Positions 18,789 to 35,693 of a stretch of 35,815 nt of DNA are shown here, one piece after another. Position numbers and translations under genes: made by a program. This DNA is from Deltaproteobacteria bacterium (GTDB taxonomy: Bacteria > Desulfobacterota > Desulfobacteria > Desulfobacterales > B30-G6), in the NCBI GenBank assembly GCA_022340465.1, contig JAJDNW010000018.1:1-35815 (forward strand), in the 5' to 3' direction. Below the pieces are notes generated by a model. That model did not search any database and was not told where the DNA came from. It worked only from the letters and a program-made list of their open reading frames with translations. How positions within the stretch are numbered: the stretch's first letter is position 1; each line of letters starts with the position of its first letter.

Positions 18789-18909
18789 GAAAAACATGTT
18801 CGGTCCCAGCGCCATGCCCCAGAGCAGAGATAGCTTGGCGCGCTGACAAACGATTTTGATTGTCCACCCGGGACGAAGGTGTCCCACAGGTAACCACAAG
18901 GAGGATAAG

Positions 18910-20205
18910 ATGAAAAAAGCTTTTCATGGTGTACAGCGATTATTCCTGGCAGCAGTGTTGTTGGTGCTCATTGTCGGCCCGTCATTTGGAGCGGATTTTA
19001 ACTGGCGCAAGTACGAGGGGACCACGCTTCGAGCGCTTTTTGTGAAATCAGCATTTACGCCGATTGCCCAGAAACAACTTAAGGAATTCGAGGATCTAAC
19101 CGGTATTACGGTCAAGGCCGAGTACTATTCGTCGGCACCCTTACGTCAGAAACTGGTCATGGAGCTCGGTGCAAAAAACAAAGACCTGGACGTTTTTGGG
19201 GGAATGATGAAAACAGCCTTTCAGTATGAAAAAGCGGGTTGGCTGGAACCCCTTGAAAAATATGTCAACAATCCCGAGCTGACGCATCCTGATTTCGATT
19301 TTGAGGATTTTGCTGCCCGTACCCATCCCATTATCAACAATCATTTGATCGGGATAACATCCAGCTGCAACCCGCAGCTGCTCATGTATCGCAAGGACCT
19401 GTTCGAAGAATACGGCATCAAGGTTCCCACCAATTGGGCTGAGCTGGAAGCGGCTGCCCAGGCGCTGAAAAAGCATCTTCCAGATGGGCAGTTCCCCTGG
19501 ATTGTTCGTATGAACAAAGAAAACACGGCACCTTTCGCCACATTTCTATACACCAATGGTGCCAGCTGGTTGGATGAAAACGGCAAACCCGCTTTCAATA
19601 CGCCGGCAGCCGTCGAAGCCATCGAGTTCTATGGCAAGATGGCCCGGGAATACGGGCCTCCGGGGGCGGCTACTATCGGCTGGAAAGAAGTGGTGGGAGC
19701 CATCGCGCAGGGCAAAGCCGCTATGACGGCGGAGATTTCGATTTTTGCCGGCCTGGTATTCGAAAACCCCAAACGATCCAAGGTGGCCGGAAAAATGGGC
19801 TATGTCATGATTCCTCCTGGAAAAACCGGTCAATTTCAAGCCATGCTGCCGCTCACCACGGGTCATATCAGCACTTTTTCGGAGAAAAAAGAAGCGGCCT
19901 GGTACCTGCTGCAATACACCTCCATGAAAGAACCGATGATGGATTATCAACTGGCCGGGCTGCCCATGACGCGCTTGTCCTGTTGGGAAGATCCAAGATG
20001 GAAAGCCAAGGATAAAATGCCGCAACTGTCAAAACTTCAGGTGGAAGCGATTGAAAACGGGCGCATTGGTTTTGAAATCCCGATTGCCAGGTTCACGGAA
20101 GCCAGGCCCATATTGTCGCGTCTCCTGTATGTTGGTTATGAGGGCGGTGAAGTGCAGCAAGCGGCTGATGATGCCGTTAAAGAGGTTGCACGGTTGGTTG
20201 ATTAG
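18910..20205 (+). CDS. ABC importer substrate-binding protein, family 1
   Basis: A 431-residue extracellular solute-binding protein of the sugar-type (SBP_bac_1, CUT1) class. It has a Sec signal peptide (MKKAFHGVQR, then LFLAAVLLVLIVG) with cleavage near SFGA-DF (about residue 27). The ATG follows a strong AGGAGG and is preferred to an upstream in-frame start. Family-like features include LKEFEDLTGITVKAEYYSS and the hinge region near GKAAMTAEISIF. The downstream genes are two permeases and an ATPase. The ligand may be a sugar, polyol, glycerol-phosphate-like or polyamine-like molecule. Confidence 0.92.
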   Translation: MKKAFHGVQRLFLAAVLLVLIVGPSFGADFNWRKYEGTTLRALFVKSAFTPIAQKQLKEFEDLTGITVKAEYYSSAPLRQKLVMELGAKNKDLDVFGGMMKTAFQYEKAGWLEPLEKYVNNPELTHPDFDFEDFAARTHPIINNHLIGITSSCNPQLLMYRKDLFEEYGIKVPTNWAELEAAAQALKKHLPDGQFPWIVRMNKENTAPFATFLYTNGASWLDENGKPAFNTPAAVEAIEFYGKMAREYGPPGAATIGWKEVVGAIAQGKAAMTAEISIFAGLVFENPKRSKVAGKMGYVMIPPGKTGQFQAMLPLTTGHISTFSEKKEAAWYLLQYTSMKEPMMDYQLAGLPMTRLSCWEDPRWKAKDKMPQLSKLQVEAIENGRIGFEIPIARFTEARPILSRLLYVGYEGGEVQQAADDAVKEVARLVD

Positions 20206-20214
20206 GGGCACGGG

Positions 20215-21120
20215 ATGAGAGCAATATCGCCGGTACAGCGCATACTGGATTATACGGACAGGCAGATTCGCTGGCTATTCTCTTTTCCGGCCATGCTGTT
20301 TATGATCGTATTGTTCGCCTATCCGCTATACGAGCTGGTGTCCACCAGTCTCACCAACGAAGTGTTGTCATCGGAGGGTGCAGGCGAATTCATCGGCCTG
20401 GCCAACTTTTCCAGGGCCTTTTTTGAAGATCAGCACTTCTGGCGCTCTGTCCGGATTACGCTCTATTTTGCCGCCGGCTCAACCCTGGGCCAGCTGACGC
20501 TGGGGATGGGATTGGCCCTGTTCCTGAACAGGCGGTTCAAGGGCGAGGCAACCTTTCGCATGCTCTTAATGTTTCCCATCATCGCCACACCGGTGGCCAT
20601 GTCGCTGGTGTGGTCCATGCTGATGAACCCGATGATGGGCCATTTAAACTATTATCTGTCATTTTTCGGGTTTTCCGGATCATTGTGGGCGGCGGATACC
20701 AAAACCGTGTTGCCCTCCATCATCATGGTCGAAATCTGGCACTGGACGCCCATGACCATGCTGGTGTTTCTGGCTGGATTGAAGAGCCTGCCCAGGGAGC
20801 CTTTTGAAGCGGCGGTGGTGGACGGTGCCTCCAGGGTACAGATCTTTTTCAGGATCACCCTGCCGCTGCTCCAGCCATATGTTTTCCTGTTGTTGCTGAT
20901 GCGGCTGGTTCACGGGCTCAAGGTGTTCGACAAGATTTTCGTATTGTCCGGCGGGGGCCCCAACAGGGCGTCTGAAACGCTGAATATCATGATCTACGAC
21001 CAGGCTTTCGGGGCGACCAATTTCGGATATGCCTCTGCCCTGGGATCCTTTTTGATGCTGATCATTCTGCTCATTTCCATCGGCCTGTTCCGTTTTCGTC
21101 AGAGAAACTGGGGGTATTGA
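20215..21120 (+). CDS. ABC permease, MalF/UgpA type
   Basis: A 301-residue permease with six helices, starting with a short cytoplasmic N-terminus followed by FSFPAMLFMIVLFAYPLYELV. The coupling EAA loop is EAAVVDGASRVQIFFRITLPLL, a textbook CUT1 motif. It starts 9 bases after the binding-protein stop. The downstream permease starts one base after its stop codon. It forms the channel with the MalG-type partner. Confidence 0.94.
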   Translation: MRAISPVQRILDYTDRQIRWLFSFPAMLFMIVLFAYPLYELVSTSLTNEVLSSEGAGEFIGLANFSRAFFEDQHFWRSVRITLYFAAGSTLGQLTLGMGLALFLNRRFKGEATFRMLLMFPIIATPVAMSLVWSMLMNPMMGHLNYYLSFFGFSGSLWAADTKTVLPSIIMVEIWHWTPMTMLVFLAGLKSLPREPFEAAVVDGASRVQIFFRITLPLLQPYVFLLLLMRLVHGLKVFDKIFVLSGGGPNRASETLNIMIYDQAFGATNFGYASALGSFLMLIILLISIGLFRFRQRNWGY

Positions 21121-21121
21121 C

Positions 21122-21946
21122 ATGCGTGATCACCGAACCATACAGGTCATCAACCGAATCCTGTTTTACGTCATCCTGCTATTCATTGTCGGGGTGTTTT
21201 GCTTCCCTTTTCTGTGGGTGCTCTACACCTCTTTGCAGGATGCGGTGAACGCCGGCGCGGTTCCGCCGGATTTAACGGCACCACCAACCTTGGACAACTT
21301 CCGGCAGGTGTTTGCAGAAGGTCAGTTTTTCTCCTGCTTGTGGAATTCAACGGTGGTGGTGGCGTTGACCCTGATGGCCAATTTGATTGTCTCCCTGCCG
21401 GCGGCTTACGTGATCGCCCGCAAACGTCAGAACTGGATGATGTTCCTGATTCTGTTTCTGCAAATGGCGCCCTGGATCTGCCTGCTGCTGCCCTGGTACG
21501 TTATCTTCAAAAAACTGGGATTATACGACACCTATTTCGGGCTGGTCTTGTCCAACTTGACTTTTATGATTCCGTTCACGGTCTGGCTGATGCTGGGGTT
21601 TTTCGAGGATGTGCCCGTGGAGGTGGAGGAAGCCGCCTGGCTGGACGGGTGTTCTCACCTGGGAACCTTTGTCAGGATTGTGGCACCCCTGGTCAAGGGC
21701 GGTATTATCACGATTACCACCCTGGGGTTCATGTTTTGCTGGAATATCTTTCTATTCCCGTTGGTGCTGTCCGGGTATGATTCCAAAACACTGCCCGTGT
21801 TTGTCTATGGATTTATGGCGGACAATCAGCTGGATTTCGGTCCTCTGGCCGCTGCCGCGCTGCTGTCCATGGCCCCGGTAATCGTTTTTGTTTTGATCAA
21901 TCAGAAGTACTTCCGCCAGGGCATTGCTTTCGGCGGCGGGAAATAG
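21122..21946 (+). CDS. ABC permease, MalG/UgpE type
   Basis: A 274-residue permease with six helices. An N-terminal hydrophobic segment (ILFYVILLFIVGVFCFPFLWVLYTS) precedes a periplasmic loop with PPTLDNFRQVF. The EAA loop is EEAAWLDGCSHLGTFVRIVAPL. It starts one base after the preceding permease ends, so the two are translationally linked. The C-terminal QKYFRQGIAFGGGK is the usual end of this family. Confidence 0.94.
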   Translation: MRDHRTIQVINRILFYVILLFIVGVFCFPFLWVLYTSLQDAVNAGAVPPDLTAPPTLDNFRQVFAEGQFFSCLWNSTVVVALTLMANLIVSLPAAYVIARKRQNWMMFLILFLQMAPWICLLLPWYVIFKKLGLYDTYFGLVLSNLTFMIPFTVWLMLGFFEDVPVEVEEAAWLDGCSHLGTFVRIVAPLVKGGIITITTLGFMFCWNIFLFPLVLSGYDSKTLPVFVYGFMADNQLDFGPLAAAALLSMAPVIVFVLINQKYFRQGIAFGGGK

Positions 21947-21964
21947 AGAGATGAAGGAATTATT

Positions 21965-23065
21965 GTGGCTCAGGTTAAAATAGATAAGGTATCCAAGAAA
22001 TTTGGAAAATTCAAAGCGGTCAAAGAATTCTCCCTGGACATCCAGGATGGTGAGTTTATCGTGTTGGTGGGGCCGAGCGGATGCGGAAAAACCACCCTGC
22101 TGCGCATGGTGGCCGGCTTGGAAAAAGTGACCTCAGGAGAGATATTTATCGACCAAACAGACGTCACCCGCACGCCACCTAAAAAACGGGACATTGCCAT
22201 GGTCTTCCAGAACTATGCGCTTTATCCGCACATGAACGTGTACAACAACCTGGCCTTTGCCCTGAAACTGCGCAAAATACCCAAAGCTCAGATCAAAGCG
22301 ACCGTGGAAAAAACAGCTGATCTGTTGGGAATCGGCGATTTTCTAAACCGGCGGCCCAACCAGTTGTCCGGCGGACAGAAGCAGCGGGTTGCCCTGGGCA
22401 GGGCCATTGTCAGGCAGCCCAAGGTGTTTCTCTTTGACGAACCCCTGTCCAACCTCGATGCCAAACTGCGGGTTTCCATGCGGGCTGAAATTTTGGATAT
22501 CCACCGGCGACTCAATAACACCTCGCTCTATGTGACCCACGACCAGCTGGAAGCAATGACCATGGGAACAAGAATTATCATTATGAAAGACGGCGTCATT
22601 CAACAGAACGGCCCGCCCAAAGAGATCTACAATAATCCTGCCAATAAATTTGTAGCAGGGTTCATCGGCTCGCCGGCCATGAATTTAATGCGGTTTGTTA
22701 TTCAGGAAGATGCTGGAAAGCTGATGGCAGTCAAAAACGGCTTGGCACTGATGATCCCGGAAGAAAAAAATGAGCCGTTAAAATCGTATCTTAATCAGGC
22801 GGTCTTTCTGGGCTTGAGACCGGAGCATATCAGCGATTCGGTGGTTAACGGCAGTGAAGCCGCTAACGCTGCTTTTAAAGCGTTTGTGCGGCTGGTGGAG
22901 CCGCTGGGCTCCGAGCAACTGATCCACCTGGAAGCTGAAGACCAGCGTTTCATTGCCCGTATCGATCCGCGTTCATCCATCAGCTATGGCGACACCCTTG
23001 AATTTCACGCTGATATGAACTTCGCGGCTTTTTTCGATGCCGATACCGAAACAAGGATTGTTTAA
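21965..23065 (+). CDS. ABC importer ATPase, MalK/UgpC type
   Basis: A 366-residue ATPase. Walker A GPSGCGKT (36-43), the QNYALYPHM Q-loop, signature LSGGQKQR, Walker B VFLFDEPLSNLD, and switch LYVTHDQLEAMTM. The C-terminal TOBE/MOP-like regulatory domain spans about 240-366 (LGLRPEHI, LVEPLGSEQLIHLE). The start is GTG with AAGGA six bases upstream. It completes the second importer. The regulatory domain can bind inducer-exclusion partners in related systems, though nothing shows that here. Confidence 0.95.
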   Translation: MAQVKIDKVSKKFGKFKAVKEFSLDIQDGEFIVLVGPSGCGKTTLLRMVAGLEKVTSGEIFIDQTDVTRTPPKKRDIAMVFQNYALYPHMNVYNNLAFALKLRKIPKAQIKATVEKTADLLGIGDFLNRRPNQLSGGQKQRVALGRAIVRQPKVFLFDEPLSNLDAKLRVSMRAEILDIHRRLNNTSLYVTHDQLEAMTMGTRIIIMKDGVIQQNGPPKEIYNNPANKFVAGFIGSPAMNLMRFVIQEDAGKLMAVKNGLALMIPEEKNEPLKSYLNQAVFLGLRPEHISDSVVNGSEAANAAFKAFVRLVEPLGSEQLIHLEAEDQRFIARIDPRSSISYGDTLEFHADMNFAAFFDADTETRIV

Positions 23066-23138
23066 ATTTGAATTCCCCGCTGCGGCACGACTGGGGACTT
23101 CGAGCGAGCCTCGGTCAACAGGGAACGGAGATAGCGCA

Positions 23139-24902
23139 ATGAGCCAAAAGATTCCTGATGTCATTATTGAGTCCAACGTTCCGGCCACCATGCGCGATGG
23201 CGCCGTGTTAAGAGCCGATATATACCGTCCGGCCGTTGCGGGCACGTTTCCGGTCCTATTGCTCAGAACGCCCTATGCCAAATCCAATATGAGCTTGGTT
23301 TTTCAGACGACCATGGATCCGATAAAAGCGGCTCAGGCCGGTTATATGGTTATTATTCAGGATGTTCGGTCCCGGTGGGAATCAGACGGGGACAAGTTTT
23401 TTCCGTATCGGGATGAGTTCGATGACGGATTCGATACAGTGGAATGGGCGGCTTCGTTGCCCAATTCCAATGGAAATGTGGGCATGTTCGGCTATTCTTA
23501 TTATGCGACAACGCCGTGGTTTGCGGCTGTGACGCAGCCCCCGCACTTGAAGGCGATTTTCCCGTTTGCTGCCGCCATGGATTTTTACCAATATCGGGGA
23601 GGGGCGCTGGATCTTTCTATCATGATCGCCTGGACGCTGTTACTCCTCGGTCCGGATGGCATTACGAAGGCAAAAGCGGGTTCGCCCGAGCTGATTCCGG
23701 AACTGATGAGTCTGTTTGCCAACATCGATCGAATCGAGCAGGTTTTCAGGGCGTTGCCGTTTCAGGATATCGAGGCAATGAAACTGGGAGACACATTTGC
23801 CCCCTATTTTTATGAAACGCTGGCGCACCCCCTGTATGATGATTACCACAAGCAGCAGACAGTGATTGACAAGCATGATCGTGTCAGGGTACCGGCCCTG
23901 ATTTTTACCGGATGGTATGATCTGCTGCTGCAGAATGATCTGCTGCACTTTACCCGCATGCGCAATGAGGCGGCAACACCGGAAGCAAGGGATAATACGC
24001 GCATCGTGATCGGCCCCTGGACGCACGTCGGCACAACCGGTGCGGTGGGAGAACTGAATTTCGGATTAGGCGCTTCTACCCTTTTGCTGGAATTGAAAAC
24101 GAATCTGACAGAAGTTCACCTGGAGTGGTTTGATTATTGGCTTAAAGGGATCAGGAATAATATTAACGATGAACCACCGGTCAAGATATTTGTAATGGGC
24201 GACAATGCCTGGCGCGGAGAAAACGAATGGCCGCTGACTAGGACAAGATACACGCCGATGTACATACACAGCTCCGGCAAAGCCAATTCTCTTGTCGGAG
24301 ATGGCCAACTCTCTTTCGAGCCGCCTCTCGACGAACCTGAGGATCATTTTGTTTTTGATCCGAATAATCCCGTACCCACTATGGGTGGGAATCACATCCT
24401 GCCGCTGTATTATCACCGCGGTCCGGTTGACCAGACGATTCTCGAGCAACGATTTGACGTGCTGGTATACAGCGGCGATATTCTTGAGCAGGACGTTGAA
24501 GTCACGGGTCCTTTGTCCGTCAAACTTTTTGCTGCCAGTAGTGCCCCGGATACTGATTTTACGGCGAAATTGGTCGATGTGCATCCGGACGGGAGGGCCT
24601 TCAATATCGCCGATGGCATCATCCGCGCCCGCTACCGTAAGGGTCGAGCCGCTGAACCGAGTTTAATTACCCCCAATTCGGTCGTTGCGTACGACATCGA
24701 TCTTTTGGCCACCAGTATCGTATTTAAAAAAGGCCACCGCATCCGGATAGAGATATCCAGCAGTAATTTTCCTCGTTGGGATCGCAACCCGAACACCGGT
24801 GAACTGGCTCACGAAGCAGAAACATTAACCACCGCGTTTCAGACGGTCTACCATAACAGCCGGTATCAAACCCATATTCTGCTGCCCCTGATTCCTCGGT
24901 AA
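23139..24902 (+). CDS. CocE/NonD family hydrolase (X-Pro dipeptidyl-peptidase-like)
   Basis: A 587-residue alpha/beta-hydrolase with a C-terminal jelly-roll domain, the architecture of cocaine esterase, glutaryl-7-ACA acylase and PepX. The triad is visible: Ser120 in MFGYSYYA, Asp261 in TGWYDLLLQND, His296 in GPWTHVG. The C-terminal domain (from about 430) contains EVTGPLSVKLFAASSAPDTDFTAKLVD and IRIEISSSNFPRWDRNPN. The ATG with GGAG eight bases upstream is chosen over an earlier frame opening that overlaps the ATPase gene. No signal peptide is present, so it acts in the cytoplasm on an ester or amide. It lies right after the second importer. Confidence 0.92.
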   Translation: MSQKIPDVIIESNVPATMRDGAVLRADIYRPAVAGTFPVLLLRTPYAKSNMSLVFQTTMDPIKAAQAGYMVIIQDVRSRWESDGDKFFPYRDEFDDGFDTVEWAASLPNSNGNVGMFGYSYYATTPWFAAVTQPPHLKAIFPFAAAMDFYQYRGGALDLSIMIAWTLLLLGPDGITKAKAGSPELIPELMSLFANIDRIEQVFRALPFQDIEAMKLGDTFAPYFYETLAHPLYDDYHKQQTVIDKHDRVRVPALIFTGWYDLLLQNDLLHFTRMRNEAATPEARDNTRIVIGPWTHVGTTGAVGELNFGLGASTLLLELKTNLTEVHLEWFDYWLKGIRNNINDEPPVKIFVMGDNAWRGENEWPLTRTRYTPMYIHSSGKANSLVGDGQLSFEPPLDEPEDHFVFDPNNPVPTMGGNHILPLYYHRGPVDQTILEQRFDVLVYSGDILEQDVEVTGPLSVKLFAASSAPDTDFTAKLVDVHPDGRAFNIADGIIRARYRKGRAAEPSLITPNSVVAYDIDLLATSIVFKKGHRIRIEISSSNFPRWDRNPNTGELAHEAETLTTAFQTVYHNSRYQTHILLPLIPR

Positions 24903-25127
24903 GCGATATTAAACCCGCCGACTGCGATGATTTGACAGGTTGTTTCGTGGCCGGGGAATCTTTTACCGTGAGTTGCGTTGATTTCAGAACCTGTCTTTTT
25001 TATCGTTAAAAGGGACCTCTTTCATGGTCGCGAAGTCAGCTTGAGAGAAAATTCGAACCGAAGACGACCAAGAAAAAGCTGTTAAATCTGCATGAGTTAT
25101 AAAACACACCAGTAAGGAGAAGTCCAT

Positions 25128-26324
25128 ATGGCAAAATTGCCGCTTGAAGGGATAACGGTCATCGATTTCGCGACACTGATTGCAGCACCGGTTATTGCCA
25201 CATTTTTAGGAGACTTTGGCGCCACAGTCATTAAAGTTGAGCAGCCTGATGTCGGGGAACCGATGAGGCACAAATTGGCTTTTCCTGACGGCCGCAGCCC
25301 CATCTGGCTGAATGAAGGGCGCAATAAAAAAACAATAACGTTGAATCTAAGAACTGAACAAGGGCAGGAGATCGCGCATAAACTTGCCGAAAAGGCAGAT
25401 GTCGTGTTGTTGAACTTCCGCCCCGGCCAGGCTGAAAAGTGGAATATCGGACCGGAAGATTTGCATAAAAGCAATGAAAATTTAATTGTAGCCCTGGTTT
25501 CAGCCTACGGGCAGACCGGACCGTACAGCAAAAAGGGCGGCTTTGATCGTACTATAGGGGCTTTTTGTGGAACCACTTATGTGACCGGTTACCCGGATAA
25601 TCCGCCGGTGCGCACCGGCTATGCCCAAATCGATTACATGACGGCCTATATGGGCGCGTTCGGTGTGATGACGGCGCTTTATAACCGGGAGGTCAACCAA
25701 ACTGGCGGGGAAATCATCGATTTGAGTTTGGCCGAGGCGGGTTTTCGTTGCTCGGAAGCCGCTCTAATGGATTACAGTATGACCGGAAGCATTCGTGAAC
25801 GAACCGGTAACCGCAATCCCCACTTTGTACCTGCTGAAGACTTTGAAACAAGGGACGGCAGAATTCTGGTTATCAATGCCGGCACCGAACGCCTCTGGAA
25901 AAAGCTGGCATGTGCCATGGGGCAGCCGGAACTGCTGGAAGATGAGCGATTCGACAACACCATCAACCGGATTGTCAATCAAAATGCCCTCTACGCTATC
26001 ATTGCGAACTGGGTAAAGGAATTGACGGCAGAACAAGGGTTGAAAATCTGTGACGACGCCGGTGTACCGGCAGATATTATCCGCAATATTGCTGATCTGG
26101 CAGACGATCCTCACATGCGCAAACGCGAAGCGGTAATGGCCTTTAACGATCCTGAGAAAGGCGATATTCTAATACCCGGCGTTTTTCCGAAGATGTTGCG
26201 CTTCCCGGGAAAGGTAAAATTCCTGGGCGCAAGATTAGGAGAGCATAACCATGAAATTTATGGCGGCCTTATCGGTTTATCAAACGATGAAATCTCAAAA
26301 CTTAAGGATAACGGAGTGATTTAG
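25128..26324 (+). CDS. Family III CoA-transferase, third copy (divergent)
   Basis: A 398-residue CoA-transferase. It has VIDFATLIAAPVIATFLGDFGATVIKVEQP at the N-terminus, VVLLNFRPGQAEKW, and a catalytic Asp169 in AQIDYMTAY. It is clearly less similar to the 9389 and 17601 genes than those are to each other, so it probably handles another acid pair. AAGGAG precedes the ATG. A 225-base gap before it holds no recognised gene and may contain a promoter. The next gene starts 48 bases after its stop. Confidence 0.93.
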   Translation: MAKLPLEGITVIDFATLIAAPVIATFLGDFGATVIKVEQPDVGEPMRHKLAFPDGRSPIWLNEGRNKKTITLNLRTEQGQEIAHKLAEKADVVLLNFRPGQAEKWNIGPEDLHKSNENLIVALVSAYGQTGPYSKKGGFDRTIGAFCGTTYVTGYPDNPPVRTGYAQIDYMTAYMGAFGVMTALYNREVNQTGGEIIDLSLAEAGFRCSEAALMDYSMTGSIRERTGNRNPHFVPAEDFETRDGRILVINAGTERLWKKLACAMGQPELLEDERFDNTINRIVNQNALYAIIANWVKELTAEQGLKICDDAGVPADIIRNIADLADDPHMRKREAVMAFNDPEKGDILIPGVFPKMLRFPGKVKFLGARLGEHNHEIYGGLIGLSNDEISKLKDNGVI

Positions 26325-26372: not shown

Positions 26373-27296
26373 GTGAATACTGACGTTTTACAATTTATAG
26401 AAAAGCTGTTCGCGACCAATTCTTTAAACCGGTTACCGGAGCAATATGGTGGGGGCCGAATTTTTGATAGGCCGATTATTGGTGTGGCGAAAGGTGACGA
26501 TCCAATTTTTTTAAAATATAAGGAAGTAGTGGGACCCGGGCATTTGACGCCGGAAGAAATGTGGCTGCAAAGTGGACTTCCGGATGATCCGGACATTGCC
26601 GCACGATTACGAACGGTATCCATCATTTTTCCCTATGTCGAACGAATTCGTGAAGAAAGCAAGACTGCTCGAAAAATGCCGGCAGAAATTTACAGCGTGG
26701 GCCGCAATTTTGCCAACGCGTTTATGGATGAAGTGCTGGAAAGGACAGTATGCTATTTTCAGGAAAAAAGATTTCAGGCGACATCCGGCATGCGTAGCCC
26801 TGCCTTTCAAATCATTGTCAATGAAAATCCTCTCAACATTTATGCCACCTGGTCCGAACGCCATATAGCGTTTGCGGCTGGTCTGGGGACCTTCAGTCTG
26901 CATGAAGGATTCATTAGCGAAATCGGCTGCAACATCCGGATTACCTCCATCATCACGGATGCGCCGCTGGAAGTGACACCCAGAAAAAACGATGATCCTT
27001 ATGCCAACTGTTTATACTACGCCAATGGCAAATGCAAAAAATGCGCGGAGAGATGCCCGGGCGATGCCATCTCAGAGGAAGGGCATGACAAATTGAAATG
27101 CTACCTGTATGGACAGATTGTCCAGGAAGAAATGACCGGCAGGCTTAAATATATATTAAAACGCCACCTGCGGTATATAAATGGCGAAGAGAAATGGTCA
27201 TATCCGGTCGGCTGCGCCTTCTGCCAGTTTGATGTCCCTTGTATGATGACTAACCCGGTAAAGGAGAAGGCCAATCTGAGCCCATTTAAGGACTAA
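26373..27296 (+). CDS. QueG-like protein with two 4Fe-4S clusters
   Basis: A 307-residue iron-sulfur protein. Eight cysteines form two sets: Cys213, 221, 224 and 228 (with CPGDAIS) and Cys243, 281, 284 and 290 (GCAFCQFDVPC). The segment ERHIAFAAGLGTFSLHEGF...RITSIITD resembles the cobalamin-binding core of epoxyqueuosine reductase and reductive dehalogenases. These proteins share AGLG and a following 'TD'. The start is GTG with GGGGG seven bases upstream; a TTG 11 codons earlier is less likely. It is longer upstream than simple ferredoxins. It may be a corrinoid or electron-transfer enzyme. A role as electron acceptor for the AORs is possible but unproven. Confidence 0.82.
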   Translation: MNTDVLQFIEKLFATNSLNRLPEQYGGGRIFDRPIIGVAKGDDPIFLKYKEVVGPGHLTPEEMWLQSGLPDDPDIAARLRTVSIIFPYVERIREESKTARKMPAEIYSVGRNFANAFMDEVLERTVCYFQEKRFQATSGMRSPAFQIIVNENPLNIYATWSERHIAFAAGLGTFSLHEGFISEIGCNIRITSIITDAPLEVTPRKNDDPYANCLYYANGKCKKCAERCPGDAISEEGHDKLKCYLYGQIVQEEMTGRLKYILKRHLRYINGEEKWSYPVGCAFCQFDVPCMMTNPVKEKANLSPFKD

Positions 27297-27326
27297 AATT
27301 TAACAATTTTTCATTCCAGTAATAGG

Positions 27327-27352
27327 TGCTGGATACCGGATCAAGTCCAGCA
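27327..27352. repeat. Short inverted repeat, possible dispersed intergenic repeat
   Basis: TGCTGGA (27327-27333) and TCCAGCA (27346-27352) flank TACCGGATCAAG. Sequences of the type 'TGCTGGATnCCGGATCAAGTCC(A/G)GCATGACAG' recur between genes in many proteobacteria; this is a comparison from memory. The rest of the 27297-27545 gap shows nothing I can identify. Confidence 0.4.
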
Positions 27353-27545
27353 TGACAGGGTAGGTATTTAATTGCCAGGTTAATAACATAATTCGATAGG
27401 AATCAAAGCACCGTTGAGAACTTACAATGTCGGTTACTTGTTTTGATAGTTGGCACACTTTTTAGCTGATTGAAGTTCATCATTTCCGCTGAGAAGTTTA
27501 CCATCCTTTGAAAATTATTGCAGAAGTCTAAAGCTCAGTCATACC

Positions 27546-27734
27546 TCAGGCAATGTAGCCTACGAATCCATCGCAACATTCGTTGAAAAATTCCATAGCC
27601 TCATCAACGGTGTCAAACATGATCCAATCGTGTTTAATGACATTTTCACCCTGCATACGGATGCGTTCGATCGCCGTATTCCCGAAATATTCAAAATGGT
27701 CTTGGTAATCTGCGTATATTTCCTGTGTTCTCAT
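27546..27734 (-). CDS. Small hypothetical protein (62 aa)
   Basis: An acidic protein with MRTQEIYADYQDHFEYFGN at the start, a cysteine pair (ECCDGF) and a hydrophobic end (VGYIA). A perfect AAGGAGG lies eight bases before the ATG, which makes it a convincing gene in spite of its size. It is divergent from the HU remnant and MoaD-like genes. I do not recognise the family. Alternating aromatic and charged residues suggest a small folded domain. Confidence 0.68.
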   Translation of the reverse strand: MRTQEIYADYQDHFEYFGNTAIERIRMQGENVIKHDWIMFDTVDEAMEFFNECCDGFVGYIA

Positions 27735-27781
27735 TTTGGCGCCTCCTTATCTTTGTTTTGTAAACAGATTACCACACGGGT

Positions 27782-27811
27782 TTGACAGATACGGTCACAC
27801 CGTTGTATGTT
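27782..27811 (+). promoter_or_regulatory. Sigma-70-type promoter ahead of the MoaD-like and AOR genes
   Basis: TTGACA (27782-27787) and TATGTT (27806-27811) are 18 bases apart. The spacer contains a small dyad ACGGT-CAC-ACCGT (27791-27803) that could be an operator. It points toward the HU remnant, the sulfur carrier and the AOR. Confidence 0.5.
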
Positions 27812-27855
27812 TTCCTGAGATTTCCTGCCCAACACCCATTAGAGAGAGGATTCCC

Positions 27856-27972
27856 ATAAACAAGCTCGAAGTTATTAAGACCCTTTGTGCGCAAAATGGA
27901 CTTTCCAAATTCGAAGCGACTAAAATTGTGCCCATTTTTTTTGAACAGATGTCAGCTGCATTGGAAAGATAG
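27856..27972 (+). pseudogene. Remnant of an HU/IHF-family DNA-binding protein gene
   Basis: The frame reads INKLEVIKTLCAQNGLSKFE followed by ATKIVPIFFEQMSAALER and a stop. This matches the N-terminal helical half of HU/IHF proteins (usual start MNKxELIExLAxxxGLSKxEA, then FFExIxxAL). The DNA-binding beta arms (GFGSF...RxGRNPxTG) are absent. The first codon is ATA where ATG is expected, with a good AGAGAGGA at correct spacing, so the start seems mutated. The protein should be about 90 residues but ends after 38. Confidence 0.65.
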
Positions 27973-28008
27973 GAAATTAAACAGGATTAACAGTAAGGAA
28001 AGGATACG

Positions 28009-28275
28009 TTGTTCAGATCCAAGGCAACCATTCAGATCAAGGTTAAGCTCTACGGTGGGCTGGACGCCCTTGCCAAGATAGAAAATTATGATCCCGAAGC
28101 TGGGCTTAGGTTGGATGTCCCGGAAAATATCCGCTTGGAGAAGGTAATAAAAAAAATAGGTTTAGGTAAAACCGGTTCAATAAGATTGTTTGTTAATGGA
28201 AACGCGGCAAAGTTAAGAGATCAGCTCAACAATGGGGATGTCATTTTTTGCATGAGGCCCATGGCCGGGGGGTAG
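28009..28275 (+). CDS. MoaD/ThiS-like sulfur carrier protein
   Basis: An 88-residue beta-grasp protein ending in MAGG. The C-terminal Gly-Gly is adenylated and thiocarboxylated in MoaD and ThiS, where it supplies sulfur for molybdopterin or thiamine. Typical features are IQIKVKLYGGLDAL at the start and LFVNGN...LNNGDVIFCMRPMAGG at the end. The start is TTG after AAGGAAAGGA. It is 54 bases upstream of the AOR, and AOR-linked MoaD-like proteins probably serve the dithiolene sulfurs of the tungstopterin cofactor. Specific activity on AOR maturation is inferred. Confidence 0.85.
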   Translation: MFRSKATIQIKVKLYGGLDALAKIENYDPEAGLRLDVPENIRLEKVIKKIGLGKTGSIRLFVNGNAAKLRDQLNNGDVIFCMRPMAGG

Positions 28276-28329
28276 TGCATCGAATTCAAGGAATTCATAA
28301 TTTGCAGAATCAAATTTAACGGGGGCTAT

Positions 28330-30291
28330 ATGGGCAATGGATTTATGGGAAAATATTTGGTTGTGAATCTGACAGACGGCTCAACGGAAACGGTTGAATT
28401 ACCCGATAGCTTTTACAAAAAGTATCTCACCGGATACGGACTGGGCGCAGCCATCATCGCTGAGCGGCAAAAAACGGGTATAGACGCGCTGGCACCTGAA
28501 AGCCATTTGGGTCTCTGCTCGGGGTTGTTAACCGGCTGCGGACTGCCCTTTACCGGACGGTTCATGGCGGTTGGCAAATCGCCACTGACCGGTGGATGGG
28601 GCGATGCCAATGCCGGCGGCTTTTTGTCCAGGGAAATCAAACGTACCGGATATGACGCCGTTTTTTTCACGGGCAGGGCCTCGCAACCGACCTGGGTGCA
28701 TATAACGGACAATAATGTGGACCTAAAAGACGCGTCGTTGCTCTGGGGGAAGAACATCAATGATACCGAGACGGCCATCAAAGAGGAACTAGGAACAAAA
28801 AATGTTCAAATCGCCTCTATCGGCATGGCCGGAGAAAAGCTTTCGTTGATATCCGGCATTGTGACGGATAAGGCGCGTGTCGCTGCCCGCTCGGGACTCG
28901 GAGCGGTCATGGGCAGCAAGAATTTAAAGGCGGTCTCTTTTAAAGGATCCACTCGGATATCCGTGGCCCGCCCAAGTGACGTGAAGGATTTGAATGCAAC
29001 TTTTTTGAATGAATTTAAGAAAGATGCCAATCTCGGAGATAGACTGGCCGTCAGGTTTCTCAATTTTTTGAGCAAACTCGTTGCGAAGTCACCCCTGAAT
29101 CCACCGGCGACAAACGGCAATTTGAAGCTTATCTTCGGCAAATGGGGAACACCGGGGCTGACGATGTTTTCAGGCATGACTGCCGACACGCCGGTTAAGA
29201 ACTGGGGGGGGACACCGTCCACGGACTTTACCTTCGAGAGCATTGAAAAACTGGCGGGTGAGACGGTAATCAAGCGTCAGAAGAAGAGGTACGCCTGCCA
29301 GTCCTGCCCTCTTGCCTGCGGAGGCAAGGTCGATGTCCTGTCCGGGCCATATCAGGGATCTGAAGGCCACAAGCCCGAATACGAAACCATTGCTGCTTTC
29401 GGTGCCATGGTGCTCAATGAAGATCTTGATGCGATTATTGAAATCAACGAGATGTGCAACCGTGCAGGCATTGACACCATTTCCACGGGTGGAACCGTGG
29501 CATATGCCATCGAATGCTTTGAAAACGGCCTGATTGACGCTGAGACCACTGGTGGACTGGAACTGACCTGGGGCAATGTAAACGCTATCATCAAACTGGT
29601 TGACATGATCATAAAGCGGGAGGGGTTTGGAGACACGCTGGCCGACGGTGTCAGGGTGGCCGTAAAAAAAATCGGCGCGGAATCTGAAAGGTATGCCATG
29701 CATGCAGGCGGTCAAGAACTGCCCATGCATGATTCAAGAAACGATCCCGGCTGGGCATTGATGTATCAAATAGAGCCCACGCCTGGACGCCATACAATCG
29801 CCAGTTATGTCGATGCGGACCTGCGCAGCGGAAAGGAGCAGTTCCCCGAGGTCAAACGGATGGTTAAAGCGGCCAAAACCAAACAGCGTAAAAAAGTCAG
29901 CATCACCACGGCGACAAGCATTTACACCCAGATCATCAACGGTTGCGGTGTCTGCATCTTTGGACCTGACACCATTCATTATCCGATCGTTGACTTCTTA
30001 AACGCGGTCACCGGCTGGGATCTGACCGCTGATGACTACTTCAAAACAGGAAAGAGAATACTGAATTTGAGAAAAGCCTTTAACATCCGTGAAGGCGTGA
30101 CCCAGGCTGATTCGAAATTGCCACCGAGAGCTGTCGGCACCCCCCCGCTAAACGATGGACCTTTGAAAAATATCTCTGTGGATGTTGACGCCCTGGAAAA
30201 AGATCTTCATGAACTCCTGGGATGGGATCAGCGTACCGGCGGCCCGACATCTGAAACGTTGAAAGAAATGGAACTGGATGATCTTTTTTAG
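28330..30291 (+). CDS. Tungsten-containing aldehyde:ferredoxin oxidoreductase family protein
   Basis: A 653-residue AOR-family enzyme that oxidises aldehydes to acids at a bis-pterin tungsten site, with ferredoxin as acceptor, in the cytoplasm. The N-terminal domain has KYLVVNLTDGS, RFMAVGKSPLTGGWGDANAGG and RSGLGAVMGSKNLKAV. The 4Fe-4S ligands are Cys323, Cys326 and Cys330 (CQSCPLAC) plus Cys539 or Cys542 in NGCGVCIFG. HKPEYETIAAFG (347-358) and ELPMHDSR (463-470) are conserved. It is somewhat longer than the 605-residue Pyrococcus AOR, with an insertion around residues 235-295. GGGGG precedes the ATG. Benzoyl- or acyl-CoA reductase-like relatives share the fold, so the substrate remains open. 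Confidence 0.93.
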   Translation: MGNGFMGKYLVVNLTDGSTETVELPDSFYKKYLTGYGLGAAIIAERQKTGIDALAPESHLGLCSGLLTGCGLPFTGRFMAVGKSPLTGGWGDANAGGFLSREIKRTGYDAVFFTGRASQPTWVHITDNNVDLKDASLLWGKNINDTETAIKEELGTKNVQIASIGMAGEKLSLISGIVTDKARVAARSGLGAVMGSKNLKAVSFKGSTRISVARPSDVKDLNATFLNEFKKDANLGDRLAVRFLNFLSKLVAKSPLNPPATNGNLKLIFGKWGTPGLTMFSGMTADTPVKNWGGTPSTDFTFESIEKLAGETVIKRQKKRYACQSCPLACGGKVDVLSGPYQGSEGHKPEYETIAAFGAMVLNEDLDAIIEINEMCNRAGIDTISTGGTVAYAIECFENGLIDAETTGGLELTWGNVNAIIKLVDMIIKREGFGDTLADGVRVAVKKIGAESERYAMHAGGQELPMHDSRNDPGWALMYQIEPTPGRHTIASYVDADLRSGKEQFPEVKRMVKAAKTKQRKKVSITTATSIYTQIINGCGVCIFGPDTIHYPIVDFLNAVTGWDLTADDYFKTGKRILNLRKAFNIREGVTQADSKLPPRAVGTPPLNDGPLKNISVDVDALEKDLHELLGWDQRTGGPTSETLKEMELDDLF

Positions 30292-30630: not shown

Positions 30631-30682
30631 ATTAAATTATCGTTTTCCATCCAATATCTTGTGTGGAAGGGGATATCCCATT

Positions 30683-31270
30683 ATGGGTAGAAAAACGGTT
30701 AGAGACGAAAGAAGGAAACAAATCCTGGACGCTGTTCACCAGTGCCTTCTTGAAAAACCGTTTCACAAAACCTCAATCAAAGATATTGCTCGAAAAGCCG
30801 GGTTGAACCATGGCGCTCTGCATTATTATTTTGAAAATAAGGAGCATATTCTTCTCGAATATATCGATTATTCTCAAAAGAAATTCGATATTTTTTATGA
30901 TAAATTCCTAAAAGAAGAGAATGTAAGATCCGCTGCTGATCTTGATTCAATCAATGAGAAATGTCACTGGGCGCTGGATGAACTTACATTTCACAAAGAG
31001 TACGCAAGAATATTTATCGAAATCTGGGCGCATGCGCTCTACAATCCCAACGTGATGAAAAAGATCAAAGGTATGTATCGAGAAAGGAGAGATACCCTTT
31101 TTTCGGATATCAGCAACATCGTCGATTCAAAAAAAGAGGCCAGAAAGATAAGTTTGACTGTCATTGCCGTGTTTGAAGGGCTATCGCTGATGTCCAGCCT
31201 TTTCTCAAAAAAAGATCTTCAATACGATTTTGATTTCAATGATTTTTTAAAACTATTGAACACAAAATAG
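30683..31270 (+). CDS. TetR/AcrR-family transcriptional regulator
   Basis: A 195-residue regulator. The N-terminal DNA-binding domain is standard (RKQILDAVHQCLLEKPFHKTSIKDIARKAG, then LNHGALHYYFENKEHIL). The C-terminal part, of BetI/TetR_C type, has KEYARIFIEIWAHALYNPNV. The ATG giving MGRKTVRDER, with GGAAGGGG upstream, is preferred over a TTG eight codons earlier. It is 90 bases upstream of the MFS gene in the same direction and probably controls the MFS-fusion-kinase group and itself. Confidence 0.9.
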   Translation: MGRKTVRDERRKQILDAVHQCLLEKPFHKTSIKDIARKAGLNHGALHYYFENKEHILLEYIDYSQKKFDIFYDKFLKEENVRSAADLDSINEKCHWALDELTFHKEYARIFIEIWAHALYNPNVMKKIKGMYRERRDTLFSDISNIVDSKKEARKISLTVIAVFEGLSLMSSLFSKKDLQYDFDFNDFLKLLNTK

Positions 31271-31360: not shown

Positions 31361-32587
31361 ATGGGAGATAAGACCTTTACCGTTTATAAATATCGCTGGG
31401 TAGTGCTTTTTTTCTTTTCAATGATGCAGTGCATCATGCAGATGCTCTGGATCACCTTTGCCCCGATCACCAGCGAAGCAGCCGCGTTTTATCAGGTGTC
31501 TGCCTTGCAGATTGGTTTTCTGTCCATGGTCTTTATGATCGTTTACCTGTTTGTTTCCATCCCGGCCTCATGGGCTATTGATACATTTGGAATCCGCAAG
31601 GGAGTCGGATTTGGAGTCGTTCTGACGGGCATTTTTGCCATGACGCGTGGATTCGGCGGTGACAGCTTCACCTGGGTACTGGTTTCGATGATCGGGATCG
31701 CTGTCGCCCAACCGTTTGTGCTCAATTCCATGACAGCCATGGCTGCCCGCTGGTTTCCCCTGGAAGAGCGGGCAACGGCAGCAGGCATTGCCTCCCTGTT
31801 TCTTTTTGTCGGAATTATGGCCGGACTGGCTGTGACGCCCTCCTTGACGATCAAATACGGGATCCCGGGGATGCTGAAAATATACGGTGGCTTGGCACTC
31901 GTTTTTGCCGTGGCCTACCTGGTATTTGTCAAGGAGAAGCCGCCGACGCCGCCGGCCGAGGTCGACACCGAACGGACTCTGGTGTTTGACGGGCTGAAAC
32001 ATATTTTCAAACAAAAGGATATGATATTTCTGCTGATCATCTTCTTTTTCGGCCTTGGCATGTTCAACGCTGTCACCACCTGGATCGAGCAGATAATCGC
32101 CCCCCGTGGGTTTTCCATCGTACAGGCCGGAAACCTGGGCGGCATTATCATGATTGGCGGTATCCTCGGCTGTATTGTCGTGCCGCCAATATCTGACAAG
32201 ATACGGAAACGCAAGATTTTCGTGATCCTGAGTGCGGTACTTTCACTGCCGACACTGATTGGAATGTCCTTCACAACCAGTTACGCGCTGCTGCTGGTTT
32301 CCGGCTTTTTCTTCGGCTTTTTCTTCCTCAGCGTCGGGCCGATTATTTATCAGTACAGCGCTGAAATCTGCTACCCGGCGCCGGAAGCCACGTCCCAGGG
32401 CTTGTTGGTACTGGCCGGTCAAATTTCCGGTATCATTTATATTTTCGGGATGGATGCATTCAGGTCGGCGGACGGATCCATGACGCCCTTTCTGCTGTTC
32501 ATGATCGCGGTCATCCCCATCGAAATCTTTATAGCAGCGCGATTGAAAGAATCCACCATGGTTGAAGAGGGAGTTAAAAATGAATAG
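31361..32587 (+). CDS. Major facilitator superfamily transporter
   Basis: A 408-residue, 12-helix MFS transporter with a central charged loop near residues 185-215 (VKEKPPTPPAEVDTERTLVFDG). An FGIRKGVGFG segment lies between helices 2 and 3. The closest general resemblance is to the FLVCR-like/NNP or organic-anion branch; the substrate is not evident. AGGAGG precedes the ATG. The last bases overlap the start of the fusion gene by 8, so the two are translationally coupled and the transporter probably moves the substrate or product of the fusion enzyme. Confidence 0.9.
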   Translation: MGDKTFTVYKYRWVVLFFFSMMQCIMQMLWITFAPITSEAAAFYQVSALQIGFLSMVFMIVYLFVSIPASWAIDTFGIRKGVGFGVVLTGIFAMTRGFGGDSFTWVLVSMIGIAVAQPFVLNSMTAMAARWFPLEERATAAGIASLFLFVGIMAGLAVTPSLTIKYGIPGMLKIYGGLALVFAVAYLVFVKEKPPTPPAEVDTERTLVFDGLKHIFKQKDMIFLLIIFFFGLGMFNAVTTWIEQIIAPRGFSIVQAGNLGGIIMIGGILGCIVVPPISDKIRKRKIFVILSAVLSLPTLIGMSFTTSYALLLVSGFFFGFFFLSVGPIIYQYSAEICYPAPEATSQGLLVLAGQISGIIYIFGMDAFRSADGSMTPFLLFMIAVIPIEIFIAARLKESTMVEEGVKNE

Positions 32588-35500
32588 TTTACGTGTGAAC
32601 ATGACCCGACTGGAGGTCACAGCGGAAAAAATTCCGACTGGACAGGAATTGATCGGCGGCAGATGTCTGACCGCGAAAATTCTCAACCAGGAGGTTCCCC
32701 CGGGTGTTGATCCGTTGTCGGAAGGAGCAAAGCTGATCATCGCCACGGGCCCCCTGGCAGGCACAAACGCCTCGTCCCTGGGAAGACTGTCCATGGGTGC
32801 CAAAAGCCCTTTGACGCACGGTATTAAGGAGTCCAACGTCGGCGGTCCGGCCGGGCAGAAAATCGACCGCCTGGGCATCCGTGCAATCATCATCGAGGGC
32901 TGCCCGGCAGACGACAGCATGTATGTCCTGCACCTCAGCCCCGATAATTTTTCACTGGAGAAAGCGGATGATCTCAAGGGCCTTAAAAACACGGACACCG
33001 CTGAGCGGCTTCGGGATAAAACCAATGAGAACGTCACCGTGATATCCATCGGTCTGGGTGGTGAACGGCGCTGGAAATCAGCCGCCATCACCTGTACCGA
33101 CAAGGATGGGCGATGTTCACGGCATGCCGCCCGGGGCGGCCTGGGGTCCGTGATGGGGGCCAAGGGGCTGAAGGCTATTGTGATCGATGACAAAGGGGCG
33201 CCGCGCGTCGCCTTAAAAGATAAAGACCACTTCCGCAAAACCCTGCAACAGTTTGCCGAGCTGGTGAAAACAGATCACCAGACCCAGGAGATGAGCACGA
33301 TGGGCACTCCCGGTATCATCGATGCACTTCGCGACATCGGTTCCATGCCGGCGCTCAATTACGGCAGCGAGCCTCTGGAGGGGGTTGAAAACATCAACGG
33401 CGAAGCCTTGCTCAAGCTGGTGCAGGAACGCGGCGGTTCCATGGACCCCTGCATGCCGGGCTGCCTCATCGGCTGCTCGATGGTTTTCAACGATGCAGAC
33501 GGCAACCATGTCACCTCCAGTTTTGAATATGAAACCATCGCCCTGATGGGTACCAATCTGGGTATTACCGACCCGGATGTCGTCGCAAGATTCGACCGAA
33601 TTGTCGACGATATCGGCATCGACAGCATCGAACTGGGCAGCGCCCTGGGCGTGGCAGCTTCTGCCGGCCGGTTCAAAATGGGTGATGCCGATGGCGTTTA
33701 CAAGCTGCTGGAGGAGGTTGAACAGGGCACGGAATTCGGTGCCGTGTTGGGAAACGGTGTTGTCGAGACGGCCACCTACCTGGGGGTAGACAGGATACCG
33801 GCCTTCAAGGGCCAGTCCATGCCTGCCCACGATGCCAGGGTTACCAAGACCACCGGCGTCACCTACTTCACCAGCCCGCAGGGGGCCGATCACACGGCCG
33901 GGCTTTCCTACGAAGATCCACAGGGGACGGAAGGACAGGTAGACCGCTCGCTCAAGACGCAGATTTTCTGTGCCATGGCAGATGCCCTTGGAATGTGCAT
34001 CCTGGCTGCGCCCAGCGATCCGACCCGTGTCCTGATTTACCTGCGGGGCCTGATCAAAGGCCGCTACGGTATTAATATCAGTGCGAACCAGCTGTTCGAA
34101 ATCGGAAAGGAGACCCTGCGCCAGGAACTGAAATTCAACCGGGGAACGGATATCGAGACGGCCCATTCCGATCCGACCTTTGTTCGCGAGGAAAAAGTGG
34201 CGCCCCTGTCGGCCGTATTCGATATTGACCGGGATGAAGTCGATTCAATCTGGGACCGGTTGGAATCGGCCCGTCTGGTGGATTCCTTTGTGGAGTATCC
34301 CTATGTAAAGCGCTACGGCAATATTAAAGCCATGCCGGACCAGGGGATGGATCAGGACCTTATCTTCAGCCAGCTGAAGGAAATGGCGCAGGAGGAAGAC
34401 GCCAAGTGGAAGAACGGGAAATGCTCCGGTACCATGTATGGCGGCGATCCCAAGATTTTCGAGATGATCGGCCGGGCCTTTGAATTGTATACCCATGTCA
34501 ATGTTCTGCAGCGGGACCTGTGCCCCAGCCAGACCAAATTCGAGTCAGAGATCATTGCCATGACCCTTGATTTCCTCAATGCACAGGCCGTCAAAGATCA
34601 TCATCCCCATGACAGGCCCTGCGGTGTTATCGGCACCGGTGGTACGGACAGCATCATCAGCGCCGTACTGGCCCACCGCAACAAATTTCGTGATGAGCGG
34701 GGCATTACCAGGCCGGAGATGATCATGGCCCATACGGCCCATACCGCGTTTCGCAAAGGAGCGCATTATTTCGGCGTCAAATTGATCGAGGCACCGGTGG
34801 ACCCGCAGACCACCCTGGTGGATATGGATTTTGTGAAGGATCATGTCAATGACAACACCATCTTGCTGGTGGGATCGGCCGGAAATTATCCCTATGGCAC
34901 CATCGATCCCATTGATGAGCTTTCAGACCTGGCGCTGAAGCACGACATCGGGCTTCACGTTGACGGCTGCCTGGGTGGATTCATCCTGCCATGGGGGGAA
35001 CAGCTGGGATATGACATCCCGGCTTTCGATTTCCGCATTCCCGGTGTTACCTCCATTTCCGCAGACACCCATAAATATGCCTACGGCCCCAAGGGGACAT
35101 CTGTCGTGGTATACCGCGACAAGAATATCCGCAAATACCAGTACACCACCAATCCGGAATGGGTCGGTGGGACATATGTTTCTCCCGGTATCGGTGGCAG
35201 CCGCTCAGGCGGAATCATGGCAGCTACCTGGGCGGTCATGGTCACACTGGGTAAACAGGGATATCTTAAGCGGGCGCGCAGGATTTTCGAGACAGCCTTT
35301 AGCATGCAGAAATCCGTGACCCGGCATCCGGAGTTGCGATTGATGGGCAGCCCGACATTCTGCTTCTCTTTCACATCGGACGTTTTTGACATCTACCACC
35401 TCAACGATTTCATGAAGGATCGCGGCTGGCGGTTCAACGGTCAGCAATACCCCAGCGCCATCCATATGTGCGTCACCGGCCCCCAGACGCAGCCGGGTCT

Positions 35501-35693
35501 TGCCGAGGAGTTCGATAAGGACCTTGAAGAGGCGGTGGCCTATGCTAAAAAACCGGCCCGCAGCATCGCCAAGAGTGGCGCTCTGTACGGTGGACAGGGA
35601 TCCAAAGCCATGATCGAGCACAATGACATGGAGATGATCAGGGATATCATGATTGAATACCAGGACGATTGCTTGGAACAACCGGATGATTAG
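32580..35693 (+). CDS. Fusion of AOR-family oxidoreductase with sphingosine-1-phosphate lyase-like PLP enzyme
   Basis: A single 1037-codon frame. Residues 1 to about 570 are AOR family: GGRCLTAKIL, ATGPLAGT, GAKSPLTHGIKESNVGG, GGLGSVMGAKGLKA, cluster cysteines Cys291, Cys295 and Cys299 (spaced C-x3-C-x3-C, not the classic C-x2-C-x3-C) and Cys473 in ADALGMC. Residues about 585-1035 match the soluble part of sphingosine-1-phosphate lyase: SGTMYGGDPK, GTGGTDSIISAV, LHVDGCLGGF (Asp795 for the PLP ring nitrogen), DFRIPGVTSISADTHKYAYG (Lys832, Schiff base), and the ending SGALYGGQG. Lyases of this family cleave phosphorylated amino alcohols to an aldehyde and phosphoethanolamine; AOR oxidises aldehydes. 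Start: ATG after GAGGGAG. No membrane segment is present. Confidence 0.93.
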   Translation: MNSLRVNMTRLEVTAEKIPTGQELIGGRCLTAKILNQEVPPGVDPLSEGAKLIIATGPLAGTNASSLGRLSMGAKSPLTHGIKESNVGGPAGQKIDRLGIRAIIIEGCPADDSMYVLHLSPDNFSLEKADDLKGLKNTDTAERLRDKTNENVTVISIGLGGERRWKSAAITCTDKDGRCSRHAARGGLGSVMGAKGLKAIVIDDKGAPRVALKDKDHFRKTLQQFAELVKTDHQTQEMSTMGTPGIIDALRDIGSMPALNYGSEPLEGVENINGEALLKLVQERGGSMDPCMPGCLIGCSMVFNDADGNHVTSSFEYETIALMGTNLGITDPDVVARFDRIVDDIGIDSIELGSALGVAASAGRFKMGDADGVYKLLEEVEQGTEFGAVLGNGVVETATYLGVDRIPAFKGQSMPAHDARVTKTTGVTYFTSPQGADHTAGLSYEDPQGTEGQVDRSLKTQIFCAMADALGMCILAAPSDPTRVLIYLRGLIKGRYGINISANQLFEIGKETLRQELKFNRGTDIETAHSDPTFVREEKVAPLSAVFDIDRDEVDSIWDRLESARLVDSFVEYPYVKRYGNIKAMPDQGMDQDLIFSQLKEMAQEEDAKWKNGKCSGTMYGGDPKIFEMIGRAFELYTHVNVLQRDLCPSQTKFESEIIAMTLDFLNAQAVKDHHPHDRPCGVIGTGGTDSIISAVLAHRNKFRDERGITRPEMIMAHTAHTAFRKGAHYFGVKLIEAPVDPQTTLVDMDFVKDHVNDNTILLVGSAGNYPYGTIDPIDELSDLALKHDIGLHVDGCLGGFILPWGEQLGYDIPAFDFRIPGVTSISADTHKYAYGPKGTSVVVYRDKNIRKYQYTTNPEWVGGTYVSPGIGGSRSGGIMAATWAVMVTLGKQGYLKRARRIFETAFSMQKSVTRHPELRLMGSPTFCFSFTSDVFDIYHLNDFMKDRGWRFNGQQYPSAIHMCVTGPQTQPGLAEEFDKDLEEAVAYAKKPARSIAKSGALYGGQGSKAMIEHNDMEMIRDIMIEYQDDCLEQPDD

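Follow-up and report, generated by a model that had tools for sequence, protein, structure and literature searches.

The contig JAJDNW010000018.1 of a Desulfobacterales bacterium (GenBank assembly GCA_022340465.1), whose 35,815 nucleotides we call the window, encodes a QueG-like iron-sulfur (Fe-S) protein, a MoaD-like sulfur carrier and an aldehyde ferredoxin oxidoreductase (AOR) family protein in close succession. A preliminary description, made from the sequence alone, had located these three genes and a 54-base gap between the last two; open reading frames (ORFs) and DNA show all three genes where it placed them, with the gap at 28276-28329. We consider it probable that they form two independent units lying side by side: an orphan gene for a protein with a class III corrinoid fold, probably acquired laterally, and a MoaD-AOR pair. 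What makes the window most interesting is the QueG-like family, which may be a third branch of the class III enzymes, together with a fusion of AOR and a lyase encoded further downstream.

The Fe-S gene (26373-27296, plus strand, 307 aa) begins at GTG 26373, with aaaaaggggg upstream, or at TTG 26340 (318 aa), and stops at 27296. An AlphaFold model built from 47 aligned relatives (mean pLDDT 94.9, pTM 0.91) predicts a nitroreductase-type module followed by a double [4Fe-4S] ferredoxin over residues 1-305. The modelled chain stops after the ferredoxin, and a C-terminal HEAT domain is absent. Among the best 50 of 125 Foldseek matches, all 46 at E <= 0.001 were QueG or reductive dehalogenases, with QueG, PceA, NpRdhA and another reductive dehalogenase in the top ranks, followed by the human B12 chaperones MMACHC (4e-3) and CblD (9e-3). 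Alignment by VIA-align over 473 Foldseek matches gave the highest scores to B. subtilis QueG (Z 15.6, 204 residues, 3.1 Å), S. thermophilus QueG (Z 14.7), PceA (Z 14.4 over 213 residues) and NpRdhA (Z 13.5); MMACHC scored Z 8.8 and nitroreductases Z 6.3 or less. A profile-profile comparison with E. coli QueG and 18 related proteins returned a probability of 98.8% (E 6e-17, 205 columns). We conclude from the structure model that the protein has the core fold of QueG and reductive dehalogenases and is not a plain ferredoxin, and that it may bind a corrinoid.

Similarity to the curated family models is real, but it falls far under both cut-offs. The RdhA model TIGR02486 matched at 4.5e-8 (33 bits; cut-off 160) and the QueG model TIGR00276 at 1.5e-6 (27.5 bits; cut-off 200). 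That the protein is a true member of either family, QueG or the reductive dehalogenases, as these weak matches to both models might imply, is in our judgment very unlikely: both scores are too low, the Pfam dehalogenase domain (E 0.1) was found in 0 of the 47 family members, the HEAT domain is missing, and columns 112-114 of our by-eye alignment do not read DYH, letters that occur at any position in only 2 of 47 members. The genome also carries QueH, which we take to be an alternative epoxyqueuosine reductase and which leaves no need for a queuosine role. We therefore rejected that role, although the best QueG match of the genome, at 156 bits, is itself under the cut-off. The putative reductive dehalogenases of Asgard archaea in the available excerpt of PMC6737245, which carry pfam13486, probably belong to a different family: this domain was listed for 0 of 47 members.

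The eight cluster cysteines and the AGLG core that the preliminary description had noted are there. The cysteines (C213, C221, C224, C228, C243, C281, C284 and C290) are each kept in at least 46 of the 47 relatives, and AGLG is at residues 169-172. The cysteines form the motifs C-x7-C-x2-C-x3-C-P (45/47) and C-x2-C-x5-C (46/47). Six residues are invariant in all 47 sequences (N19, D43, R111, W160, S161 and R163), and E162 and H164 are nearly so. The stretch S-E-R-H-x-A-x-A-A-G-L-G aligns to S-D-R-A-V-A-E-R-A-G-I-G of B. subtilis QueG, and the longer loop W-S-E-R-H-x-A-x-A-A-G-L-G-T-F is exact in 26 of 47 relatives. The W-S-E-R-H loop and the two cluster motifs offer a pattern by which members of the family might be recognised from sequence.

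These features lead us to propose, tentatively and with slightly less than even confidence, that the protein represents a third branch of class III corrinoid [4Fe-4S] reductases, found in anaerobic bacteria and Asgard archaea and engaged in neither epoxyqueuosine reduction nor classical dehalogenation. The available part of Payne et al. 2015 (PMC4646009) reports Z 15.5 over 197 residues between S. thermophilus QueG and PceA. Because the model stands about as far from each of them as they do from one another (the two programs being only roughly comparable), it would belong to neither group. The same excerpt allows for further families of class III and notes the lack of a distinct cobalamin-binding motif. 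Our literature search on QueG/RdhA relatives, judged by title or abstract start and with subscription journals and preprints mostly outside its coverage, yielded no account of such a family.

Several observations weigh against a corrinoid reductase. At the columns aligned by eye, the cobalt-facing Tyr of QueG is not conserved, and the best Tyr column reaches at most 35 of 47 relatives. Column 113, the by-eye match to this residue, holds Tyr in 29 of the 47 relatives and Phe in 10, and the window protein itself has Phe there; this placement is uncertain, as it rests on the by-eye motif Y-x-x-G-R-[DN]-[YF], and hhalign put the DYH region in an insertion. Asp is not among the common residues at columns 155-159, where we placed the QueG Asp by eye. 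By query length, Foldseek TM-scores reach only modest values (0.33-0.49), and when sequence alone is compared with solved structures, the match spans just the C-terminal half.

Such a protein might instead have kept the fold without corrinoid catalysis, and act as a two-cluster electron-transfer protein or in corrinoid handling as a chaperone or activation protein. The apparent lack of a conserved Tyr/Asp pair of QueG type would agree with this, as would a fold common to the B12 processors MMACHC and CblD and a gene context with no conserved neighbour to name a substrate. We nevertheless regard it as fairly unlikely, since two-cluster enzymes are the closest structures by a wide margin, and a plain electron carrier would need no conserved 200-residue nitroreductase-type module with six invariant residues.

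We examined the origin of the Fe-S gene in a sample of the best 80 of at least 537 confirmed matching stretches, close and distant relatives together, and in 16 stretches from relatives. Ten of the 80 loci stand out, at 42-59% identity in the best segment and 40-60% in the multiple alignment, and the remaining 70 lie at 31-39%. Seven of the ten carry Asgard labels (six Lokiarchaeota/Lokiarchaeia and one Helarchaeota); the others are a Planctomycete, a deltaproteobacterial metagenome-assembled genome (MAG) and a Hyphomicrobiales MAG. All ten organism names are MAG labels, in which single contigs may be mis-binned. Lokiarchaeota account for five of the eight nearest relatives (52-60%) within the best 80. 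A phylogenetic tree was built with 84 rows, made up of the window protein, 72 loci from the set of 80 and 11 of the stretches. In it, the window protein and exactly these ten loci form a clade of 11 with support 100/99, apart from the 11 included homologues of its own order.

Some match was found in 26 of the 58 genomes nearest to the host, its own included, and the best besides itself was 40% identical. The best QueG-like match in two genomes of the same genus, G001 (99% complete) and G002 (81%), is a 38% homologue. Lateral acquisition is the simplest reading of the sequence comparisons, and a probable one, because the protein groups with Lokiarchaeota and not with its own order, and G001 holds only the 38% match. 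The host genome also encodes a QueG-like paralogue on contig C28 (neighbourhood L052).

The preliminary description had gone further, treating the QueG-like protein, MoaD and AOR as a single functional cluster in which the Fe-S protein would be a corrinoid or redox partner of AOR. The fold bears out the similarity to QueG and reductive dehalogenases, but the AOR partnership found no support. Looking for linkage elsewhere, as that description had suggested, tblastn (an ORF-based count missed L101) placed an AOR within 10 kb of the QueG-like gene in only 2 of the 80 loci, adjacent in L101 and about 8 kb off in L111, and an AOR was near in 1 of the 16 stretches, at 7 kb. None of the ten closest loci had an AOR in its covered flanks by tblastn, with 5 of the 10 having less than 3 kb on one side; coverage reached at least 3 kb on both sides in 48 of the 80 loci and 9 of the 16 stretches. 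Conversely, among seven AOR orthologues (at least 56% identity, the window's included), only the window's own has the Fe-S gene within 1.5 kb. G001 and G002 keep the MoaD-AOR pair without a close copy of the Fe-S protein.

Closeness to AOR is by itself weak evidence, because AOR matches number 21 in the 4.39 Mb of the host genome (two may be pieces of one gene), and by our arithmetic about 1% of randomly chosen genes would have an AOR no more than 1,034 bp from one of their ends. We estimate that chance would yield the observed adjacency rates if other genomes carry AOR as densely as this one. Two points count against separateness. In L101 (8199-10858), which comes from a MAG with the label Proteobacteria, an AOR stands directly upstream of the QueG-like gene and on its strand, an adjacency that no other of the 80 loci shows; and contig ends cut many loci. 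Together with the 8-kb spacing in L111 and the closeness in the window, that adjacency is what speaks for a single cluster. The 78 of 80 loci with no AOR in covered DNA, the same-genus genomes that have MoaD-AOR with only a 38% homologue, adjacency of the size expected by chance at a comparable AOR density, and a conserved opposite-strand gene between the Fe-S and MoaD genes make a single cluster most improbable. Nothing found beyond closeness ties the Fe-S gene to MoaD-AOR.

The layout of the genes likewise suggests two transcription units and not one operon, since the opposite-strand gene lies between them. The interval from the Fe-S gene to MoaD is 712 bases and holds two reading frames. 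A gene on the minus strand (27546-27734), with aaggaggcgccaaa before its ATG, encodes a conserved 62-aa small protein of unassigned function; four other copies in the same genome span 59-62 of its 62 residues, a further copy is partial, and matches occurred in 15 of 40 genomes searched. A plus-strand frame at 27736-27972 covers only the first half of an HU/IHF-like domain (PF00216, 7e-4, 20.2 bits; cut-off 22.4) and is probably a decayed gene. Promoter and terminator scans returned sites no commoner than in shuffled sequence.

Upstream, a CaiB-type (family III) CoA-transferase gene (25128-26324, plus strand; PF02515, 9e-107) ends 48 bp before the Fe-S gene on the same strand. Co-transcription of the two is possible; the pairing is not conserved elsewhere. 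The CoA-transferase was considered as a clue to the substrate and rejected: one was found near the QueG-like gene in a single stretch of the 16, at 809 bp and on the opposite strand, and in a single locus of the 80, at 7.6 kb. No conserved gene partner of the Fe-S gene was found across the 80 loci and 16 stretches.

The MoaD-AOR pair forms the second unit. The MoaD/ThiS-like carrier (88 aa, TTG at 28009, ending at 28275, plus strand) ends in PMAGG before its stop, and a Gly-Gly ending is also present in three orthologous loci. Its match to the ThiS family model PF02597 (5.6e-4), at 20.8 bits (20.6 in the genome search), falls just under the Pfam cut-off of 22.5, which weakens this assignment. 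The AOR gene follows (ATG at 28330, ending at 30291, plus strand; 653 aa), with AFOR_N (PF02730, 2e-65) and AFOR_C (PF01314, 2e-103) domains both far above cut-off; its best solved relative is 1aor (E 1.5e-96), presumably the Pyrococcus furiosus aldehyde ferredoxin oxidoreductase. A search of 96 genomes returned seven AOR orthologues (56-100% identity, the window's included), four of which have a MoaD-like gene 50-90 bases upstream, and 3 of 6 ThiS-family matches in the host genome adjoin an AOR match. The MoaD-AOR pairing is an ordinary, already known arrangement. A role for MoaD in tungstopterin assembly, raised in the preliminary description, is sensible and had already been published: the available part of Iyer et al. 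2006 (PMC1779556) describes MoaD genes strictly adjacent to AOR and proposes tungsten-cofactor synthesis. The excerpt of PMC6365974 describes an Aromatoleum aor operon with two MoaD-like genes (aorD/aorE).

A working model for each unit can be outlined. In the first, the two ferredoxin-type [4Fe-4S] clusters would probably receive electrons from a cellular ferredoxin and relay them to a base-off corrinoid seated in the nitroreductase-like module, and the Co(I) state of the corrinoid would reduce an unassigned small substrate. In the second, the MoaD-like carrier would provide sulfur for the pterin dithiolene of the AOR cofactor, with tungsten as the presumed metal and AOR as the presumed client; the AOR would then oxidise an aldehyde to the acid and reduce ferredoxin.

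Downstream of the pair, family scans identified a TetR-type regulator (30659-31270, plus strand) and an MFS transporter (31361-32587, plus strand), the latter overlapping by 26 bases the start of a plus-strand gene (32562-35693) for a 1043-aa fusion of AOR (approximately residues 1-572) with a sphingosine-1-phosphate lyase (approximately 576-1043). The second half matched the bacterial lyase structure 5k1r at E 1.6e-179 and matched 4q6r and 3mc6, which we take to be the human and yeast sphingosine-1-phosphate lyases, at about 1e-99. It contains a DTHK stretch, presumably the pyridoxal-phosphate lysine motif of the lyase. Full fusions were found in 2 of 389 genomes of the class and, among 395 genomes of the phylum, in the window's own only, at strict E-values and with two candidates scored per genome. 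G003 encodes a 93% identical fusion with the same MFS gene before it and an FGGY-family kinase after it, and the MFS neighbour is conserved in G003 and G061. G061 may hold a third fusion, cut by a contig end. The window itself ends before the point at which the kinase would begin.

The kinase accompanies the lyase well beyond the fusions. In G001, kinase, lyase and AOR are three consecutive separate genes. A closer lyase group of 16 loci comprises lyases of 40-56% identity and the G003 fusion. The kinase adjoins the lyase in 15 of these loci, and in the remaining one, L245, the lyase begins 275 bases from the contig end. Four further loci from the class search have the kinase in three cases, L258 lacking it within 1.5 kb, and the kinase likewise accompanies a lyase from another order (L273). 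A distant lyase group (36-40%) has the kinase in 0 of 6 loci; the division into a closer and a distant group was made with the neighbours already known, and there is almost no gap between the identity ranges of the two. An AOR of the fusion's clade stands beside a lyase only in L144 (fused), L211 and L212, and apart elsewhere. The L212 locus lies on contig C1 of the host genome (G000; L212:4071-7685) and has an AOR and a lyase-like pyridoxal-phosphate gene (38%) in divergent orientation, with a ThiS match just downstream of the AOR.

The AOR clade of the lyase fusion has another fusion partner, an iron-type alcohol dehydrogenase, on contig C44 of the host genome and in G040 (by Pfam) and in L260 and L261 (by similarity). 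These AOR-alcohol dehydrogenase fusions, at C44 (L213:4324-7182), L217, L260 and L261, are about 950-970 aa long. In both kinds of fusion, the partner is predicted to be able to make an aldehyde. The cassette suggests anaerobic breakdown of sphingoid bases coupled to aldehyde oxidation. In the likely pathway, the FGGY kinase would phosphorylate the sphingoid base, and the lyase half would split the product into phosphoethanolamine and a long-chain aldehyde. The AOR half, to which this aldehyde may be channelled, would then oxidise it to a fatty acid and pass the electrons to ferredoxin. If this reading holds, it would show how anaerobes dismantle sphingoid bases while capturing the reactive aldehyde within one polypeptide. 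A literature search for AOR with sphingosine, lyase or fusion, by title or abstract start and with subscription journals and preprints mostly outside its coverage, returned no account of it.

On the other side of the Fe-S gene, positions 9511-26324 read like an uptake and CoA-activation region. Three CaiB-type CoA-transferases lie there close to an ABC importer of the peptide type and another of the sugar type, along with a CocE/NonD hydrolase and a beta-lactamase-like hydrolase. Family scans identified the CocE hydrolase, one of the CaiB genes and the ATPase of the sugar-type importer; the other assignments were made by eye.

If the Fe-S protein binds a corrinoid, it would add to the class III B12 enzymes a third branch that is widespread, with at least 537 matching stretches, and present in anaerobes and Lokiarchaeota. 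Genes of this kind are easily mis-named reductive dehalogenase or QueG. The protein resembles QueG (5t8y, 5d08, 5d6s) in having a corrinoid-type module before a double [4Fe-4S] ferredoxin, eight Cys ligands (compared with the QueG cluster ligands listed in the available part of PMC4646009) and a [SL]-[DE]-R-x-x-A-x-x-A-G-[LI]-G core. It differs from QueG in the spacing of its two cluster motifs and in lacking the HEAT domain and, at the by-eye-aligned columns, DYH and a conserved active-site Asp. With PceA and NpRdhA (TIGR02486) it shares the core fold and two clusters, whereas its chain of about 300 aa has no N-terminal extension, residue 1 aligning to PceA 143 and NpRdhA 352. The MoaD-like carrier adjoins AOR as in the AOR-linked systems excerpted from PMC1779556 and PMC6365974, for which a tungsten-cofactor role is proposed; in the window, by comparison with those excerpts, MoaD lies upstream, and no MoeB, MoaE or other cofactor gene was present among the nine neighbours scanned. 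The AOR itself shares both domains with 1aor and is about 26 residues longer around positions 217-257.

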